Source of the DNA: Blastococcus sp. CT_GayMR16
Lineage (GTDB): Bacteria > Actinomycetota > Actinomycetes > Mycobacteriales > Geodermatophilaceae
NCBI RefSeq assembly: GCF_004570875.1
Contig: NZ_SPQK01000008.1
Location: 1-64,000, forward strand
DNA length: 64,000 nt
Direction: 5' to 3'
Shown here: positions 22,955 through 34,858 of the stretch, piece after piece
How positions within the stretch are numbered: the stretch's first letter is position 1
Layout of the letters: each line of letters opens with the position of its first letter
Notes under the pieces: generated by a model
Database searches by the model: none
Seen by the model: the letters and a program-made list of their open reading frames with translations, nothing else
What the model was told of the DNA's origin: nothing
Made by a program: the position numbers and the translations under genes

Positions 22955-25062
<2,108 letters not shown>

Positions 25063-28704: not shown

Positions 28705-29160
28705 TTACCGAGTCGGCCGGAGGCGTTCCTCCCAGCCGGGGCCGTGGGGCACCAGCACGGCGGTCCGGACGTCGTCGTCCCGCCGCTCGAGCCGCACCTC
28801 CAGGTGCTCCTCCGCCAGCCGCTCGACCAGACCCTGCCCCCATTCGACGACCGTGACCGACTCGTCCGTCGACGCGTCGAGGTCGAGGTCGTCGACGTCG
28901 GCCACGCCGCCCAGCCGGTAGGCGTCGACGTGCACCAGGGGCACGCGCCCGCCGTTGTGGACGCGGGAGATGACGAACGTCGGCGAGGTGACCGGCTCGC
29001 GGACGCCGAGGCCCGCACCGATTCCCTGGGTCAGCGCGGTCTTGCCGGCTCCCAGCGGCCCGACCAGGACGACGAGATCACCGGCCCGCAGCACCTCGGC
29101 GAGGGAGCGCCCGAGCGCGTGGGTGTCCTCCGGTGTCGGCAGGACGTGCTCGCGGTTCAC
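28705..29160 (-). CDS. tsaE: tRNA threonylcarbamoyladenosine biosynthesis ATPase TsaE
   Basis: A 151-aa P-loop ATPase with GPLGAGKTALTQGI (Walker A), SPTFVISRVH and the VHVDAYRL/VVEWGQ signature of TsaE. GTG 29160 overlaps the upstream udg stop (GTGA). Confidence 0.95.
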   Translation of the reverse strand: MNREHVLPTPEDTHALGRSLAEVLRAGDLVVLVGPLGAGKTALTQGIGAGLGVREPVTSPTFVISRVHNGGRVPLVHVDAYRLGGVADVDDLDLDASTDESVTVVEWGQGLVERLAEEHLEVRLERRDDDVRTAVLVPHGPGWEERLRPTR

Positions 29161-29810
29161 GGGAGATCCCGCTTCCCGACGAGGTGGGCGACCTGCCGCA
29201 GGTCGGCCGCCAGCGCCGCGCGCGGTGCACCGTTGGGTCCGAACCGGATCGCCGCGGAGGGGTGATAGGTGACGTACAGGCCCCGCCCGTTCCACGGGTG
29301 GGGGTGCTCGCGGGCGCGGCCCAGCACCGTCTTCGGCCCGAGGAACCATTTCGCCGCAGACAGCCCCAGCGCCACGATGGCCGGAGGGTCCAGGAGGTCG
29401 ATCTGCCGGTGCAGCCAGCCGCTGCACCGCGCCACCTCGGGGGCCTTCGGCGTTCGGTTGCCCGGCGGACGGCACTTCACCACGTTGAGGACTGCGCACT
29501 CGGCACGGTCGAGGCCGGCCTCGGCCAGGAGCTGGTCGAGGAGGGCGCCGGACCTCCCGACGAACGGCCGGCCGGTCTCGTCCTCGGTGGCGCCGGGCGC
29601 CTCGCCGACGAACGCGACGAGCGGACGGCCGGAGGCCGGGACGTCGCCGACGACGACGTGCTGCCGGACGGCGGCGAGTTCGGGGCAGGCGACGCAGGAA
29701 CGCGCCGTCGCGGCCAGCGTGGCCCAGTCGGGCGCGGCCGCGGCGATGCGGGCGACCTCGTCCGGGGCAGCGTCCAGCCGGGGCGGTCGGAGTGCTGCCA
29801 CGCCCGGCAC
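29157..29810 (-). CDS. Uracil-DNA glycosylase, family 4-like (iron-sulfur)
   Basis: A 217-aa enzyme removing uracil from DNA. GEAPGATEDETGRPFVGRSG is the family 4 catalytic motif; YHPSAAIRF is the second motif. Four cysteines (SCVACPEL and, later, VKCRPP ... ARCSGWL) fit a 4Fe-4S cluster. GTG 29810 gives the longest product. GTG 29801 follows a TAGGGT -10-like box by 7 nt and may be the true leaderless start. Head of the tsa operon. Confidence 0.9.
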   Translation of the reverse strand: MPGVAALRPPRLDAAPDEVARIAAAAPDWATLAATARSCVACPELAAVRQHVVVGDVPASGRPLVAFVGEAPGATEDETGRPFVGRSGALLDQLLAEAGLDRAECAVLNVVKCRPPGNRTPKAPEVARCSGWLHRQIDLLDPPAIVALGLSAAKWFLGPKTVLGRAREHPHPWNGRGLYVTYHPSAAIRFGPNGAPRAALAADLRQVAHLVGKRDLP

Positions 29811-29909: not shown

Positions 29910-30587
29910 ATGACGGCATCCGGCAACGCCGGCATCCTCGACGTCTACGACATCGCCTGCCTCGCCGGCGGGCCTGATCGGATGGTCGACACGGCACTGG
30001 TCGCGTTGATCCAGTCCGGGCGCGTGCGCATCCACCGCCCCGGGCAGCTGGCGACCGTCACGCTGTCGCGCCGCCATCCCGTCGAGGCCGCCGTCCTGGA
30101 CGCCGTCGGCCCGACCGGCCACCGCTCGGTGGACACGATCCGCTGGCGGCTGGCGACCGACGACCGCCTGCTCGACGTCGCCCGCCGCCTCCAGCGGGAG
30201 GGGCTGCTCGGCCACGCGCACCGGCTCGTCCCGCACCTGTCCGGCGGTCGCTCGTCGCCCGCCCCCACCGGCGAGGGACGGCGGGTCCTGCACCGGCTGG
30301 AGGCGCAGCCGCCCGCCGACGACATCGCCCCCGACACCGACGCGATGCTGGTGGCCCTGTGCGGCGCCGACCGGCTGCCCGATCACGAGTTCCACGCGGC
30401 GATCTTCGCGACGACCCGGACGGTGACCCCGTTCCGACGGGGCAGCCGCAGCAGCAACCGGATCGAGGCGGCCGCGGAAGCCGCGGAGGCCGCCTCCCGG
30501 ACGCCGAACGTCATCCACGGCACCTTCAACGAGTGGGTGGCGCCGGGCGGTCCGACCGCCCCCCGCAACCCGTCCCGCCGCCGATGA
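29910..30587 (+). CDS. TIGR04222-like domain protein, soluble
   Basis: A 225-aa protein. ILDVYDIACLAGGPDRMVDTALVALIQSGRV and then HPVEAAVLDAVG resemble the TIGR04222 domain of actinobacterial proteins, usually followed by a membrane part; here no transmembrane segment follows. A tail rich in Glu/Ala and Arg ends the protein. ATG 29910 with GAAGGG eight bases upstream. Function unknown. Confidence 0.7.
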   Translation: MTASGNAGILDVYDIACLAGGPDRMVDTALVALIQSGRVRIHRPGQLATVTLSRRHPVEAAVLDAVGPTGHRSVDTIRWRLATDDRLLDVARRLQREGLLGHAHRLVPHLSGGRSSPAPTGEGRRVLHRLEAQPPADDIAPDTDAMLVALCGADRLPDHEFHAAIFATTRTVTPFRRGSRSSNRIEAAAEAAEAASRTPNVIHGTFNEWVAPGGPTAPRNPSRRR

Positions 30588-30620
30588 CGAGGCGGGGACG
30601 CCGAGCCCGTCGGCCGGGCC

Positions 30621-32216
30621 CTACGCCGCCGCCTCCTGCGGCTCGGCGGACGTGTGCAGTGCGCCGAGCATGATCGCCCCGTCGTGGCGGACCCGGTTGC
30701 GCCAGTGGATGACGGCGCCGACGACCAGGGTGAGCCCGATGAACAGCAACGCACTCCACTTCAGCCACCACGTGTCGCCGGTCAGGTCGTAGATCTCCGG
30801 GCGCGGCCAGACCAGGTTGACCACCATGACCACCTGGTAGGCGACGGCGACCACATTGATCGCGATGCCCCACCGGCCGAGGGAGAACAGCGGCCTGCCG
30901 TCCTCGGCGATGCCGGACTCCAGGCCGCCGGAGCGGCGGAGCCGCAGCCGCTTGAGCAGCAGCGGGAGCGTGACCCCGAGGTAGGCCAGGTACAGCATCG
31001 CGATGCACAGCGAGGCCAGCGCGGTGAAGACCGCACTCTGGTTCCAGTTCACGGCCAGGGCGATGGCCGCCCCGACGCCGACGACGAGCGAGGTGGCGAT
31101 CGGGGTGCCGGTGCGGGGCGAGACCTTGCCGAGGACCCGGTGGAACGGCAGCGACCGCTCGCGAGCCATCGAGAACATCATCCGGGCGCCGGAGGTCTGC
31201 ACCGCGAGGGTGCAGGCGAACACGGCGACGGCGACGGCGGCCAGCAGGAGGCGTCCACCGACCCCGCCGAGCTGGCTGGTCAGCACGCCCGCCAGACCGC
31301 CCGTCGCCAACGTCCCGTCGGTGAGGCTGGGGGCTGCGACGAGGCCGCCCAGGAGCAGCAGGACTCCGCCGAGCCCGGACACGACGAGCGCCCGGATGAT
31401 CGTCCGCGGCGTCGTCCGGCGCGGCCGGTGCGTCTCCTCGGACAGCTCACCGGCGGAGTCGAAGCCGACCATGACGTAGGCGGCCATCAGCGACGAGGCG
31501 AGCCACAGCGGCAGGTAGGAGCCTTCGGGGGCGCCCTCCGTGGTGAGCACGACCGACGGTGAGCGCTCGGCCTGGAAGAAGAGCGCGACCACGAGTGCGG
31601 CCACGCCGAGCAGTTCGATCACGACGCCGACCGACGTCAGCATGGCCATGAGGCGGACGCCGATGATGTTGATGACGGTCGTGACGACGAGAAGGAGCAG
31701 CCCCAGGAGGACGGCGTTCTGCGCACCGGTCGGGCTGGTCGGCGCCGAGTCCGCCGAGGAACCGCCGATGAGCTGGAACCCCGACCAGATGGAGGGCAGC
31801 ACGGCCTGGAGGGCGATCGCGGCGGTGGCCACGGTGAGGATCTGTCCGACGATCATGACCCAGCCGGTGAACCAGCCGAAGTCGGTCCCCGCGAGGCGGC
31901 TCGACCACTGGAAGATCGAGCCGGAGATGGGATAGCGGGCCGCGAGCTCCGCGAAGCAGAGGGCGACGAGGAGCTGTCCTGCGAAGACAGCCGGCCAGGT
32001 CCAGAAGAACGCCGCGCCGCCGAAGCTGAAGCCCAGCCCGAAGAGCTGGAACACCGTGGTCAGGATCGAGACGAAGGAGAAGCCGGCGGCGAAGGAGGCG
32101 AAGTACCCGACGCCCCGGTGCAGCTCCTGCTGGTAGCCGAAGCCGCTGAGGTCGGTCCTCTCGTCGGCGGACGAGTGTGTCGACGGAGCGGCGACAGTGG
32201 TTGTCTCGGCAGCCAT
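30621..32216 (-). CDS. APC-superfamily permease, candidate guanidine/amino-acid importer
   Basis: A 531-aa transporter with about 12 transmembrane helices. The N-terminal pattern GFGYQQELHRGVGYFASFAAG, with FSFVSILTTVFQLF, is the start of APC-family amino-acid/GABA permeases; SMARERSLPFHRVLGKVSPRTGTPI is the conserved cytoplasmic loop. ATG 32216 has GAGGAG upstream. It follows the ureohydrolase gene by 41 bp on the same strand, and both lie behind a guanidine-I riboswitch, so guanidine or a related cation is the inferred substrate. This is not shown by sequence alone. Confidence 0.88.
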   Translation of the reverse strand: MAAETTTVAAPSTHSSADERTDLSGFGYQQELHRGVGYFASFAAGFSFVSILTTVFQLFGLGFSFGGAAFFWTWPAVFAGQLLVALCFAELAARYPISGSIFQWSSRLAGTDFGWFTGWVMIVGQILTVATAAIALQAVLPSIWSGFQLIGGSSADSAPTSPTGAQNAVLLGLLLLVVTTVINIIGVRLMAMLTSVGVVIELLGVAALVVALFFQAERSPSVVLTTEGAPEGSYLPLWLASSLMAAYVMVGFDSAGELSEETHRPRRTTPRTIIRALVVSGLGGVLLLLGGLVAAPSLTDGTLATGGLAGVLTSQLGGVGGRLLLAAVAVAVFACTLAVQTSGARMMFSMARERSLPFHRVLGKVSPRTGTPIATSLVVGVGAAIALAVNWNQSAVFTALASLCIAMLYLAYLGVTLPLLLKRLRLRRSGGLESGIAEDGRPLFSLGRWGIAINVVAVAYQVVMVVNLVWPRPEIYDLTGDTWWLKWSALLFIGLTLVVGAVIHWRNRVRHDGAIMLGALHTSAEPQEAAA

Positions 32217-32257
32217 CAGGAACTCCTCGGGGACGGCGGAGAGGGTGCGGAAAGGGA

Positions 32258-33400
32258 TCACCGGGTGGTGCCCTTCGGCAGGTGACCGGAGCGGACGAGG
32301 CAGCCGAGGGTGTCGCAGATGATGCGGGTCGAGATGAGCGCGGTGATCTCGGCGTTGTCGTAGGGCGGGGCGCACTCGACGACCTCGATCCCCGCCAGCG
32401 GCCGGGCGTCGGCGATGATCTGGATGAACTTCAGGACCTCGCGCGGCAGGAAACCGCCGGGCTCCGGCCATCCGGTGCCGGGCACGAAAGCGGCGTCGAG
32501 GCAGTCGACGTCGAAGGAGAGCCACACGGCCTCGGCGCCGTCCCAGGCGACGTCGAGCGCCCGCTGCGCGGCCTCCTCGATGCCCATCTCCACGCAGTCG
32601 GTGACGGTCATGACCGTCGTGCCGCGCTCGCGCCCGACCTTCACGCCCGGCCGCGGGGCCTGCCAGCCGCCGATGCCGATCTGCACGAGGTTCTTGGCCG
32701 GCACGTTCGGGATGTCCGTGGCGTGGAACCACGGCGTGGTGTGCATCCGCTCGTCGAGGTCGGTCTCCTGGGTGTCGACGTGACGGTCGAAGTGGATGAT
32801 CCCGAGGTTGCCGCCGTTCAGGTGCGGCGCGACACCGCGGGTCGTCGGATAGCCGATCGAGTGGTCGCCGCCCAGGACGACCGGGAAGGCCCCGCTCTCG
32901 TAGACGTGGCTGACGGCCTTCGTGATCTGGTCGAAGGTCTTCTCGATGTTGCCGGGGATGGTGAAGACGTCCCCCAGGTCGGCGATCGTGATCGACTCCC
33001 GGAGGTCCACCCCGAGCTCGAAGCTGTAGGGCCCGTAGAGCGCGGAGATCTTGCGGATGCCCTGCGGGCCGAAGCGGGTGCCCGAGCGGTAGGTCGTGCC
33101 GCCGTCGAACGGGACACCGAGGACGGCGACGTCGTACTCGCCCGCCCGACGGACGTCCTCGACGTACGGCGCCTTCAGGAACGTGTTGATGCCGGCGAAG
33201 TGCGGCAGTTCCCCGCGGGAGAAGGTCGGGATGGTGCGGTCGACGATGGAGTCGGCACCCTGCAGGCCCAGCTCGAGGCCACGGGCGATCTCCCGCTCGT
33301 GGACCGTCGTGGGCAGCCGCGCCTCCGCCTCGACCGCGAAGCGGGCTTCCGGCCCGTAGTTGTCGTGCAGCGGCGGACCGTGCGGATGGGAGTGGGACAC
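32258..33400 (-). CDS. gdmH: Ureohydrolase-family enzyme, probable guanidine hydrolase (GdmH-like)
   Basis: A 380-aa arginase/agmatinase-fold metalloenzyme. Metal ligands are in GGDHS (177-181), HFDRHVDTQ (203-211; an Arg replaces the usual Ala of DAHxD) and SFDVDCLD (295-302). It has a ~85-residue N-terminal extension (NYGPEARFAVEAEARL ... FAGINTFLKAPYVEDV) that standard ~310-aa agmatinases lack and that nickel-dependent guanidine hydrolases share, as I recall them. GTG 33400 has GGAGG five bases upstream. The guanidine-I riboswitch directly upstream strongly favours guanidine as substrate, giving urea and ammonia. Agmatinase remains possible. Confidence 0.82.
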   Translation of the reverse strand: MSHSHPHGPPLHDNYGPEARFAVEAEARLPTTVHEREIARGLELGLQGADSIVDRTIPTFSRGELPHFAGINTFLKAPYVEDVRRAGEYDVAVLGVPFDGGTTYRSGTRFGPQGIRKISALYGPYSFELGVDLRESITIADLGDVFTIPGNIEKTFDQITKAVSHVYESGAFPVVLGGDHSIGYPTTRGVAPHLNGGNLGIIHFDRHVDTQETDLDERMHTTPWFHATDIPNVPAKNLVQIGIGGWQAPRPGVKVGRERGTTVMTVTDCVEMGIEEAAQRALDVAWDGAEAVWLSFDVDCLDAAFVPGTGWPEPGGFLPREVLKFIQIIADARPLAGIEVVECAPPYDNAEITALISTRIICDTLGCLVRSGHLPKGTTR

Positions 33401-33445
33401 CGGTGCCTCCGGAGGGACAGCGCCGCGCGCGCGGCCGCGATCGAC

Positions 33446-33566
33446 CTCCCGGGCTTTTGTCCCGCCGTGGAACACGGGGCCGGCCAGATCGGACGACGTC
33501 CGTGCATGCACCTCTCGGACCAGGCCTGTCGCCCGTCGTGCGCCCGGACGGCAGCGGAACCCTAGG
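33446..33566 (-). ncRNA. Guanidine-I (ykkC) riboswitch
   Basis: On the minus strand the leader contains the conserved blocks of the ykkC/guanidine-I aptamer in the right order: CTAGGGTTCCG (33555-33565), CTGGTCCGAGAG (33512-33523) and GGGACAAAAGCCCGGGAG (33446-33463). The hypervariable stem between the first two contains GCCGTCCGGGCGCACGACGGGC. It ends 46 nt before the GTG of the ureohydrolase; the GGAGG ribosome site is embedded in CCTCCGGAGG, which could be masked. It turns genes on when guanidine is bound. Confidence 0.93.
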
Positions 33567-33667
33567 TGCGCCCCGGCGTGGCACCGGGTCGCGGACAGCG
33601 AACCGCTGGCCTGTTACCGCTGCTCGAACCCCGGGGTTACGTCCGGGCTACGTTCCCCGCACACGGC

Positions 33668-34858
33668 TCAGCCGGCGGTACGCGCACCCTGCTCCGCGGA
33701 GACGCGCCGCAGCATCGCCGTGAGGGCAGCACTCACTTCGGTCGGCTTCTCCAGCAGCACCAGGTGCCCGGCGTCCGGGACGACCACGAGCTCCGCGTCC
33801 GGCAACTGGCCCACGATCAGCTCGCTGTGCTCCTTGGGGATCATCCGGTCCTTGTCGCCGGTCAGGACCAGCGTCGGGATCGCGCGCAGCGGCTCGAGCG
33901 ACCCGGTCTCGTCCAGCCCCGCGAGCGCCGGGTAGAACTCGGCGATCACGTCGACGGGGGTGCCGGCGATCATCGCGTCGACGTAGTGGACCAGCGCCTT
34001 GTCCACGTTCCCGGACGCGAACGACAGCGACCGCGTCGCGGCCGACACGACGTCCGCGGCCATCCGCCGCGTCCGCTCGGCGAGGGCCGGTCGGCGGCGC
34101 ATCGTCCAGGCCGCCACCGGGAAGACGGCGGCCCGGACGCGGGTGAGCAGTTCGGGCAGCCCGAAGTTCAGCTCGGCCAGGCCGCCGCTGGACGTGGAGA
34201 TCAGCGCGACCGCGGCCACCTTCGGGCCGAAGAGCTCGGGACTCACCGACGCGAGCCCCATGATCGTCATCCCGCCCATCGAGTGGCCGACGAGGACCAC
34301 CGGCCCGCGCGGCACCCGCGCCTCGATGACCGCGTCGAGGTCACGCGCGAGCTGATCGATGGTCGAGTTCTCGGAGTGCCCGCGCCCGGACGCGCCATGG
34401 CCGCGCTGGTCGTAGAAGACCAGCCGCGCGGCCGGTCGGTGGCCGTTCGCGGTGGCCAGCTCGGCGGCCAGGGTCCTGCGCTGGAAGGTCCAGGAGGCCA
34501 TGGACAGCGTGTAGCCGTGCACGAAGACGACGGTCAGCGGCGCATCGGCCGGACCGATCTCCTCCACCGCGAGCGGGACGCCGTCGTCGGTCTGCACCAC
34601 CGCCGTCCGGTCCGCCGTCCGGGACGCGGAACCGAGCGGGTCGTCCGTCCGGAGTTCCGCGGCCGTCTGCTCCGTAGCGGTGGTGACCTCGTCGGTCAGC
34701 TCGGCGGCCCGCACCCGGCCGCCCGCCTTCCGGGTGACCGCGACACCGACCGCCGTCCCCGCGGCCGCCAGGCCGACCAGCCCACCGATGATGCCTGCGG
34801 CGGGGTGCCGCGAGACGGCGCCGGTCAGGCCGTTCCGCTTCGCCGGGCGGGCCGCCAT
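33668..34858 (-). CDS. Alpha/beta hydrolase, membrane-anchored
   Basis: A 396-aa protein with one N-terminal hydrophobic helix (GIIGGLVGLAAAGTAVGVAV) and an alpha/beta-hydrolase domain: VVFVHGYTLS, nucleophile elbow VGHSMGG, a TGDKDRMIP acid and DAGHLVLLE His. The lid is large (~100 residues). Start ATG 34858 overlaps the alr stop (TGATG), so it is coupled to alr as in several actinobacteria. Substrate unknown. Confidence 0.88.
   Translation of the reverse strand: MAARPAKRNGLTGAVSRHPAAGIIGGLVGLAAAGTAVGVAVTRKAGGRVRAAELTDEVTTATEQTAAELRTDDPLGSASRTADRTAVVQTDDGVPLAVEEIGPADAPLTVVFVHGYTLSMASWTFQRRTLAAELATANGHRPAARLVFYDQRGHGASGRGHSENSTIDQLARDLDAVIEARVPRGPVVLVGHSMGGMTIMGLASVSPELFGPKVAAVALISTSSGGLAELNFGLPELLTRVRAAVFPVAAWTMRRRPALAERTRRMAADVVSAATRSLSFASGNVDKALVHYVDAMIAGTPVDVIAEFYPALAGLDETGSLEPLRAIPTLVLTGDKDRMIPKEHSELIVGQLPDAELVVVPDAGHLVLLEKPTEVSAALTAMLRRVSAEQGARTAG

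Follow-up and report, generated by a model that had tools for sequence, protein, structure and literature searches.

We analysed positions 1 to 64,000 of contig NZ_SPQK01000008.1 from Blastococcus sp. CT_GayMR16 (hereafter the window) and found on its reverse strand a guanidine-I (ykkC) riboswitch aptamer, followed by a gene for a guanidinase and a gene for a permease of the APC superfamily. We put at about 0.82 the probability that this cassette is a horizontally acquired guanidine-use unit that senses guanidine through a riboswitch, imports it and hydrolyses it, most likely splitting it into ammonia and urea. Guanidinium entering the cell would bind the aptamer, the bound aptamer would switch on the two-gene operon, and the permease would bring in further guanidinium without ATP. 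The unit had been proposed from the letters alone at 30621-33566; it is real, but that span stops 10 bases short of the aptamer's 5' end. Below, G-numbers denote sampled genomes, with G000 the window's own, and L-numbers denote related loci; papers are given by accession and are cited for excerpts of their text.

The aptamer occupies 33444..33576 (-). The Rfam covariance model RF00442 matched at 33576-33444 over its full length (64.3 bits, E = 4e-9, gathering cut-off 63), which bears out the guanidine-I call of the original prediction, and this was the only Rfam match at gathering level within the 64-kb window. Our own model, built from 14 actinobacterial aptamers with the window aptamer among its training rows, scored it at 87.1 bits. 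The 14-row alignment, window included, contained 40 double-change cells, where shuffling gave 11.5 on average, and 95.7% of its cells were paired vs. 28–48% after a slide of 1–3 columns. The aptamer probably responds to guanidine as an ON-switch. Downstream of it, the Shine-Dalgarno sequence GGAGG of the hydrolase gene (33406..33410, -) is immediately preceded by CCTCC (33415-33411), and by folding the aptamer end paired downstream more than shuffled sequences did on average in 31 of the 41 leaders. Many leaders suggested by eye a translational switch by mutually exclusive helices; folding gave it no support, and control may be either translational or transcriptional.

The first gene (32258..33400, -) encodes what is, by its sequence, a guanidinase, i.e. 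a GdmH-type ureohydrolase, of 380 amino acids (N-terminus MSHSHPHGPPLHDNY). Its likeliest start is the GTG at 33400-33398, behind GGAGG and 43 bases past the aptamer, with a stop that ends at 32258; an alternative longer open reading frame, from 33511, overlaps part of the aptamer. The protein is 82% identical to the Nitrospira inopinata guanidinase (9FEK, Foldseek alignment; 731 bits with phmmer) and 64% identical to Synechocystis GdmH (7ESR, Foldseek alignment; 559 bits to 7ESR/7OI1 with phmmer), and the next solved family, proclavaminate amidinohydrolase, follows at 174 bits (phmmer). The arginase/ureohydrolase domain PF00491 (259.7 bits vs. a cut-off of 22) begins about 90 residues in, and to that extent the predicted N-terminal extension stands; both solved guanidinases nevertheless align over most of it. 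All six metal ligands, together with Thr105, His222, Trp313 and Glu344 (N. inopinata numbering), named as metal-binding or guanidine-specificity residues in an excerpt of PMC11410670, are present in the window protein. Equivalents of T105, H182, D207, H209, D211, H222, D299, D301 and W313 were found in 96/96 aligned relatives, and that of E344 in 94/96, the remaining two being gaps. The Arg of the DRHVD loop, which had been taken to separate this protein from agmatinase, is indeed present but is not special to it; it occurs in 96/96 guanidinases compared and therefore marks the family. The enzyme probably uses nickel.

The second gene (30621..32216, -) follows after 41 nt in the same orientation, in keeping with the predicted operon of a ureohydrolase and an APC permease. 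The 531-residue product carries the AA_permease_2 domain PF13520 (132 bits vs. a cut-off of 27), and its predicted model (predicted local distance difference test score, pLDDT, 75) is APC-like, with BasC, AdiC and LAT-type transporters, and also ApcT, among the best Foldseek matches; domain and predicted fold place it in the APC superfamily. It is a probable guanidinium importer. In the permease tree (support throughout as bootstrap/Shimodaira–Hasegawa-like approximate likelihood ratio test) it falls in a nine-row clade (100/100) that also holds the permeases of L055 and L056 and those encoded in the carboxylase operons L113-L118, to the latter of which it is 66–75% identical, whereas the permeases of guanidinase loci L127, L130, L136, L193, L196 and L053 form a separate group (88/80). 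The competing carboxylase pathway is the apparent origin of the window permease.

Several results weigh against a guanidine-use unit. The RF00442 score exceeds its cut-off by just 1.3 bits, and in G304 the sister cassette has an aptamer that does not exceed this threshold, scoring 81.1 bits with our own model. No intrinsic terminator was found in the window leader stretch, and a run of five T occurred in 0 of 41 leaders; when sequestration of the Shine-Dalgarno sequence was assessed by folding in these leaders, 12 changed in the expected direction and 7, the window's among them, in the opposite one. The structure prediction for the hydrolase is of low quality (mean pLDDT 67; template-modelling score 0.7 with a root-mean-square deviation of 18–19 Å to 9FEK) and adds little to the sequence evidence. 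No HypA match was found in G000; HypB was not sought. Finally, the permease scores 658.1 bits with TIGR03428 (permease, urea carboxylase system), under the cut-off of 740.45, and is a relative of that family, not a member, and a guanidine-I match was present at none of the six carboxylase operons with the nearest permeases (L113-L118). This last absence keeps a urea permease in contention and weakens the case for guanidinium import.

On that alternative, which we consider unlikely, the permease carries urea, or urea as well as guanidine, or exports the urea released by the hydrolase. TIGR03428 is its best NCBIfam match, carboxylase and DUF1989 genes adjoin 13 of the 14 permease relatives fetched, and the L114 carboxylase, the sole one tested, matches the urea carboxylase family TIGR02712. 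However, DUF1989 matches occurred in 13/13 of the carboxylase operons beside permease relatives, and we take these proteins to be of the carboxyguanidine deiminase type. Guanidine-I matches were found at four of the 14 permease-relative loci (L119, L122, L124 and L125), and within the window permease's own clade an aptamer lies directly upstream of the permease at both L055 and L056. At other guanidinase loci ABC systems occupy the equivalent slot, and several enzymes annotated as urea carboxylases prefer guanidine, according to an excerpt of PMC12186494.

Guanidinium import is also indirectly supported by the wider set of guanidinase loci. Our transporter and aptamer counts rest on 80 named loci, the best 80 of at least 570 relatives, and the former include genes on both strands inside the fetched flanks, some loci without a transporter ending at contig ends. 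ABC systems were found at 34 loci, distant APC permeases at 20, window-like APC permeases at five and sodium symporters at three, with none at 18. Our aptamer model matched 55 of the 80 loci and gave no match in 25; the aptamer lay directly upstream of the guanidinase at 38 and farther upstream at 17, 15 of these having the Nitrospira layout with the permease first. Among the 38 directly controlled guanidinases, 25 had an ABC substrate-binding-protein gene, five a window-like APC permease and one a sodium symporter, and none was found for seven. ABC systems with a binding protein are importers, and this favours an import function for the transporter that takes the same slot elsewhere. The four transporter states required 12 changes on the guanidinase tree (only rows with an identified transporter counted). 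Guanidine riboswitches widely control such ‘agmatinases’ according to an excerpt of PMC8390497; among the 15 guanidinase-bearing genomes of our order sample (n = 298; close guanidinase defined by E ≤ 1e-120, G000 counted in), only G000 and G188 had guanidine-I directly upstream on the guanidinase's strand.

The cassette might instead detoxify endogenous or local guanidine and not supply nitrogen, a reading that we regard as decidedly improbable. Synechocystis without sll1077 deteriorates in guanidine (excerpt of PMC8390497), and riboswitch control is as compatible with detoxification as with nitrogen supply; detoxification would, however, be counteracted by an importer encoded in that operon, and the span from the aptamer to the permease stop holds no further gene and so no exporter. 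The genome also holds a urease cluster. No urease had been seen near the cassette, which is correct, but ureA, ureB, ureC, ureF, ureG and ureD are consecutive on contig C4 of G000 (ureB by eye only), and this rules out the notion that the urea has no fate. Urease alpha was present in 15/15 guanidinase-bearing order genomes vs. 177/298 above the cut-off across the full sample (hypergeometric p = 3e-4, not corrected for kinship), and ureC lay inside the fetched flanks at 15 of the 80 named loci. A search of G000 for the guanidine carboxylase route yielded matches to biotin-carboxylase domains and other partial ones, none of them full-length. We infer a nutritional role for the cassette, with guanidine as a source of nitrogen.

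That the hydrolase is an agmatinase or a guanidino-acid hydrolase under guanidine control is highly improbable. In its favour, the depositions of the solved guanidinases name them ‘putative’ or ‘probable agmatinase 2’, and the agmatinase model TIGR01230 gives the protein 164.3 bits. Yet the protein misses that model's cut-off of 174.3, conserves the Thr/Trp pair of guanidinases and is far nearer the solved guanidinases by scores and identities, which answers in part the check proposed in the original prediction (our trees cover guanidinase relatives only); G000 also has a separate arginase-family gene at C7 (38% identity). On bit scores and active-site residues we reject the agmatinase reading itself.

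How such an enzyme would obtain nickel is a further question; for the comammox enzyme, which lacks chaperones, an excerpt of PMC11410670 describes nickel loading as unclear. The window hydrolase begins MSHSHPHG, and an HxH motif within the first 12 residues (start codons picked by script from Shine-Dalgarno-like sites) was present in 36/60 members of the window clade (57 actinobacterial, three from other phyla), 0/24 of the Nitrospira clade and 1/12 of a more distant clade, against a background of 35/519 open reading frames called in the same loci, guanidinase frames included. The arms differ strongly in sequence (e.g. GHLHH, HWHP and GFNHHHHPHQH). It is conceivable, though doubtful, that actinobacterial guanidinases load nickel through a His-rich N-terminal arm and not by way of dedicated HypA/HypB-type chaperones. 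In L068, L129 and L051, the three relatives nearest to the window enzyme, the first 12 residues contain no HxH, which speaks against such a role. So does the distribution of HypA, which gave no match in G188 and G267, was present in G304 and G215, and was found in 20 of the 40 genomes of a wider set with no visible link to HxH arms (no association test was run). The comammox guanidinase extension contacts the neighbouring subunit (excerpt of PMC11410670), so the N-terminal arm may be structural.

The cassette sits within a conserved gene order. In blastn against the relative G303 (L069), similarity ends at 30564 and restarts at 33705, with 69 bases between in L069, so that the stretch 30565..33704, i.e. 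the cassette plus small flanks, has no counterpart at the same site in G303; against G304, a single block matched (30625-33576, 87.5%). The order alr-abh-UDG-tsaE-tsaB was kept in the 14 fetched genus genomes (of 15 others), one contig stopping before tsaB, and at this site 13 of the 14 lacked both guanidinase and permease while one (G304, L068) had both. A guanidinase was found in 2/16 genus genomes and a close one in 15/298 order genomes, and the G+C content of the cassette is 0.706 vs. 0.756 and 0.753 in its flanks. In the guanidinase tree the window enzyme grouped (100/93) with those of G304, Pseudonocardia pini (L129) and G188, a genome from a different family from the window's, followed by two more Pseudonocardia rows (100/83). 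The simplest reading is that the cassette was acquired horizontally, the alternative being loss in many lines. The comammox enzymes were nested within Actinomycetota in both trees, but the deeper branches are weak (66/69, 77/79 and 82/44) and we make no claim for this placement.

The flanking genes, both on the reverse strand and assigned by Pfam and conserved order, are an upstream alpha/beta hydrolase (33671..34768, its start possibly further up) and a downstream uracil-DNA glycosylase family gene (29157..29810; Pfam UDG). In G304 the permease (L068:9142-10679) shows a frame change between its halves; that assembly is fragmented and 81% complete, and an assembly error is as likely as decay. 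Elsewhere in the window, a GroEL gene (22955-24604, -) encodes a long His-rich C-terminal tail of the kind known in actinobacterial GroEL1.

Related loci showed further arrangements of guanidine riboswitches. In the distant clade of 12 loci, part of which is presumably Mycobacterium-like, a guanidine-III aptamer lay directly upstream of the guanidinase in 10, and at eight of these a guanidine-I aptamer stood on the opposite strand before a divergent APC or sodium-symporter gene (L055, L056 and L059-L064), L057 and L058 having guanidine-III alone. Two riboswitch classes for one ligand are here placed on two halves of a pathway. A search by titles and abstract openings found no literature description of such guanidinase riboswitch layouts, and we make no claim of novelty. 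In four of these genomes (L059-L062) a carbon-nitrogen hydrolase gene of the nitrilase family follows the guanidinase. Separately, a stretch of G030 (L067:4170-7917) has a guanidine-I aptamer far from that genome's guanidinase, and the genes after this aptamer encode a 2-oxoglutarate/Fe(II) oxygenase, a protein that weakly matches HRI1, a flavin monooxygenase of the NtaA/DmoA type and a flavin mononucleotide reductase. A guanidine-riboswitch-linked dioxygenase hydroxylates methylguanidine (excerpt of PMC12508155); kinship to the L067 oxygenase is not implied.

From these results, guanidinases under riboswitch control occur across many actinobacterial genera, and the pathway emerges as modular, with closely related guanidinases beside three unrelated transporter families. 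An excerpt of PMC12508155 (2025) states that there were no studies on potential guanidine importers; the transporter swaps offer three candidate importer families for side-by-side comparison, and the His-rich arms make the nickel-loading question directly testable.

The architecture of guanidine-I aptamer, APC permease and guanidinase is already known from comammox Nitrospira, where an excerpt of PMC11410670 describes a unit of N. inopinata and other comammox bacteria, with induction of the comammox unit by guanidine in proteomics and metatranscriptomics. The window cassette shares with it the aptamer class, the guanidinase (82% identity, as above), an APC permease and the lack of a nickel chaperone nearby, but it is not of the comammox type in gene order or permease subfamily: there the order is riboswitch-permease-guanidinase, whereas here the hydrolase precedes the permease, and permeases of Nitrospira loci are 27–31% identical to the window's and distant in the permease tree. 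The Synechocystis gdmH (sll1077) operon (excerpts of PMC8390497 and PMC12186494) likewise combines guanidine-I control, a guanidinase and an import transporter, but has an ABC transporter and hypA/hypB-type genes, neither of which the window cassette contains. The order riboswitch-guanidinase-transporter, each element directly after the last, recurs at other actinobacterial loci, such as those of Pseudonocardia xinjiangensis (L127), Kutzneria sp. 744 (L130), Actinomycetospora (L193) and P. pini (L129); the first three, however, have APC permeases of another clade (51–58% identical to the window's), and P. pini has a sodium:solute symporter. Carboxylase operons L113-L118 hold the nearest, TIGR03428-like permeases, but in place of the guanidinase they encode a carboxylase, proteins with DUF1989 and, if the fetched range reaches it, an allophanate hydrolase. 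Beyond these known systems, the present cassette and its relatives add a permease of apparently different origin from the comammox one, and two leads that we consider worth testing, the nickel arm and the double-riboswitch layout.

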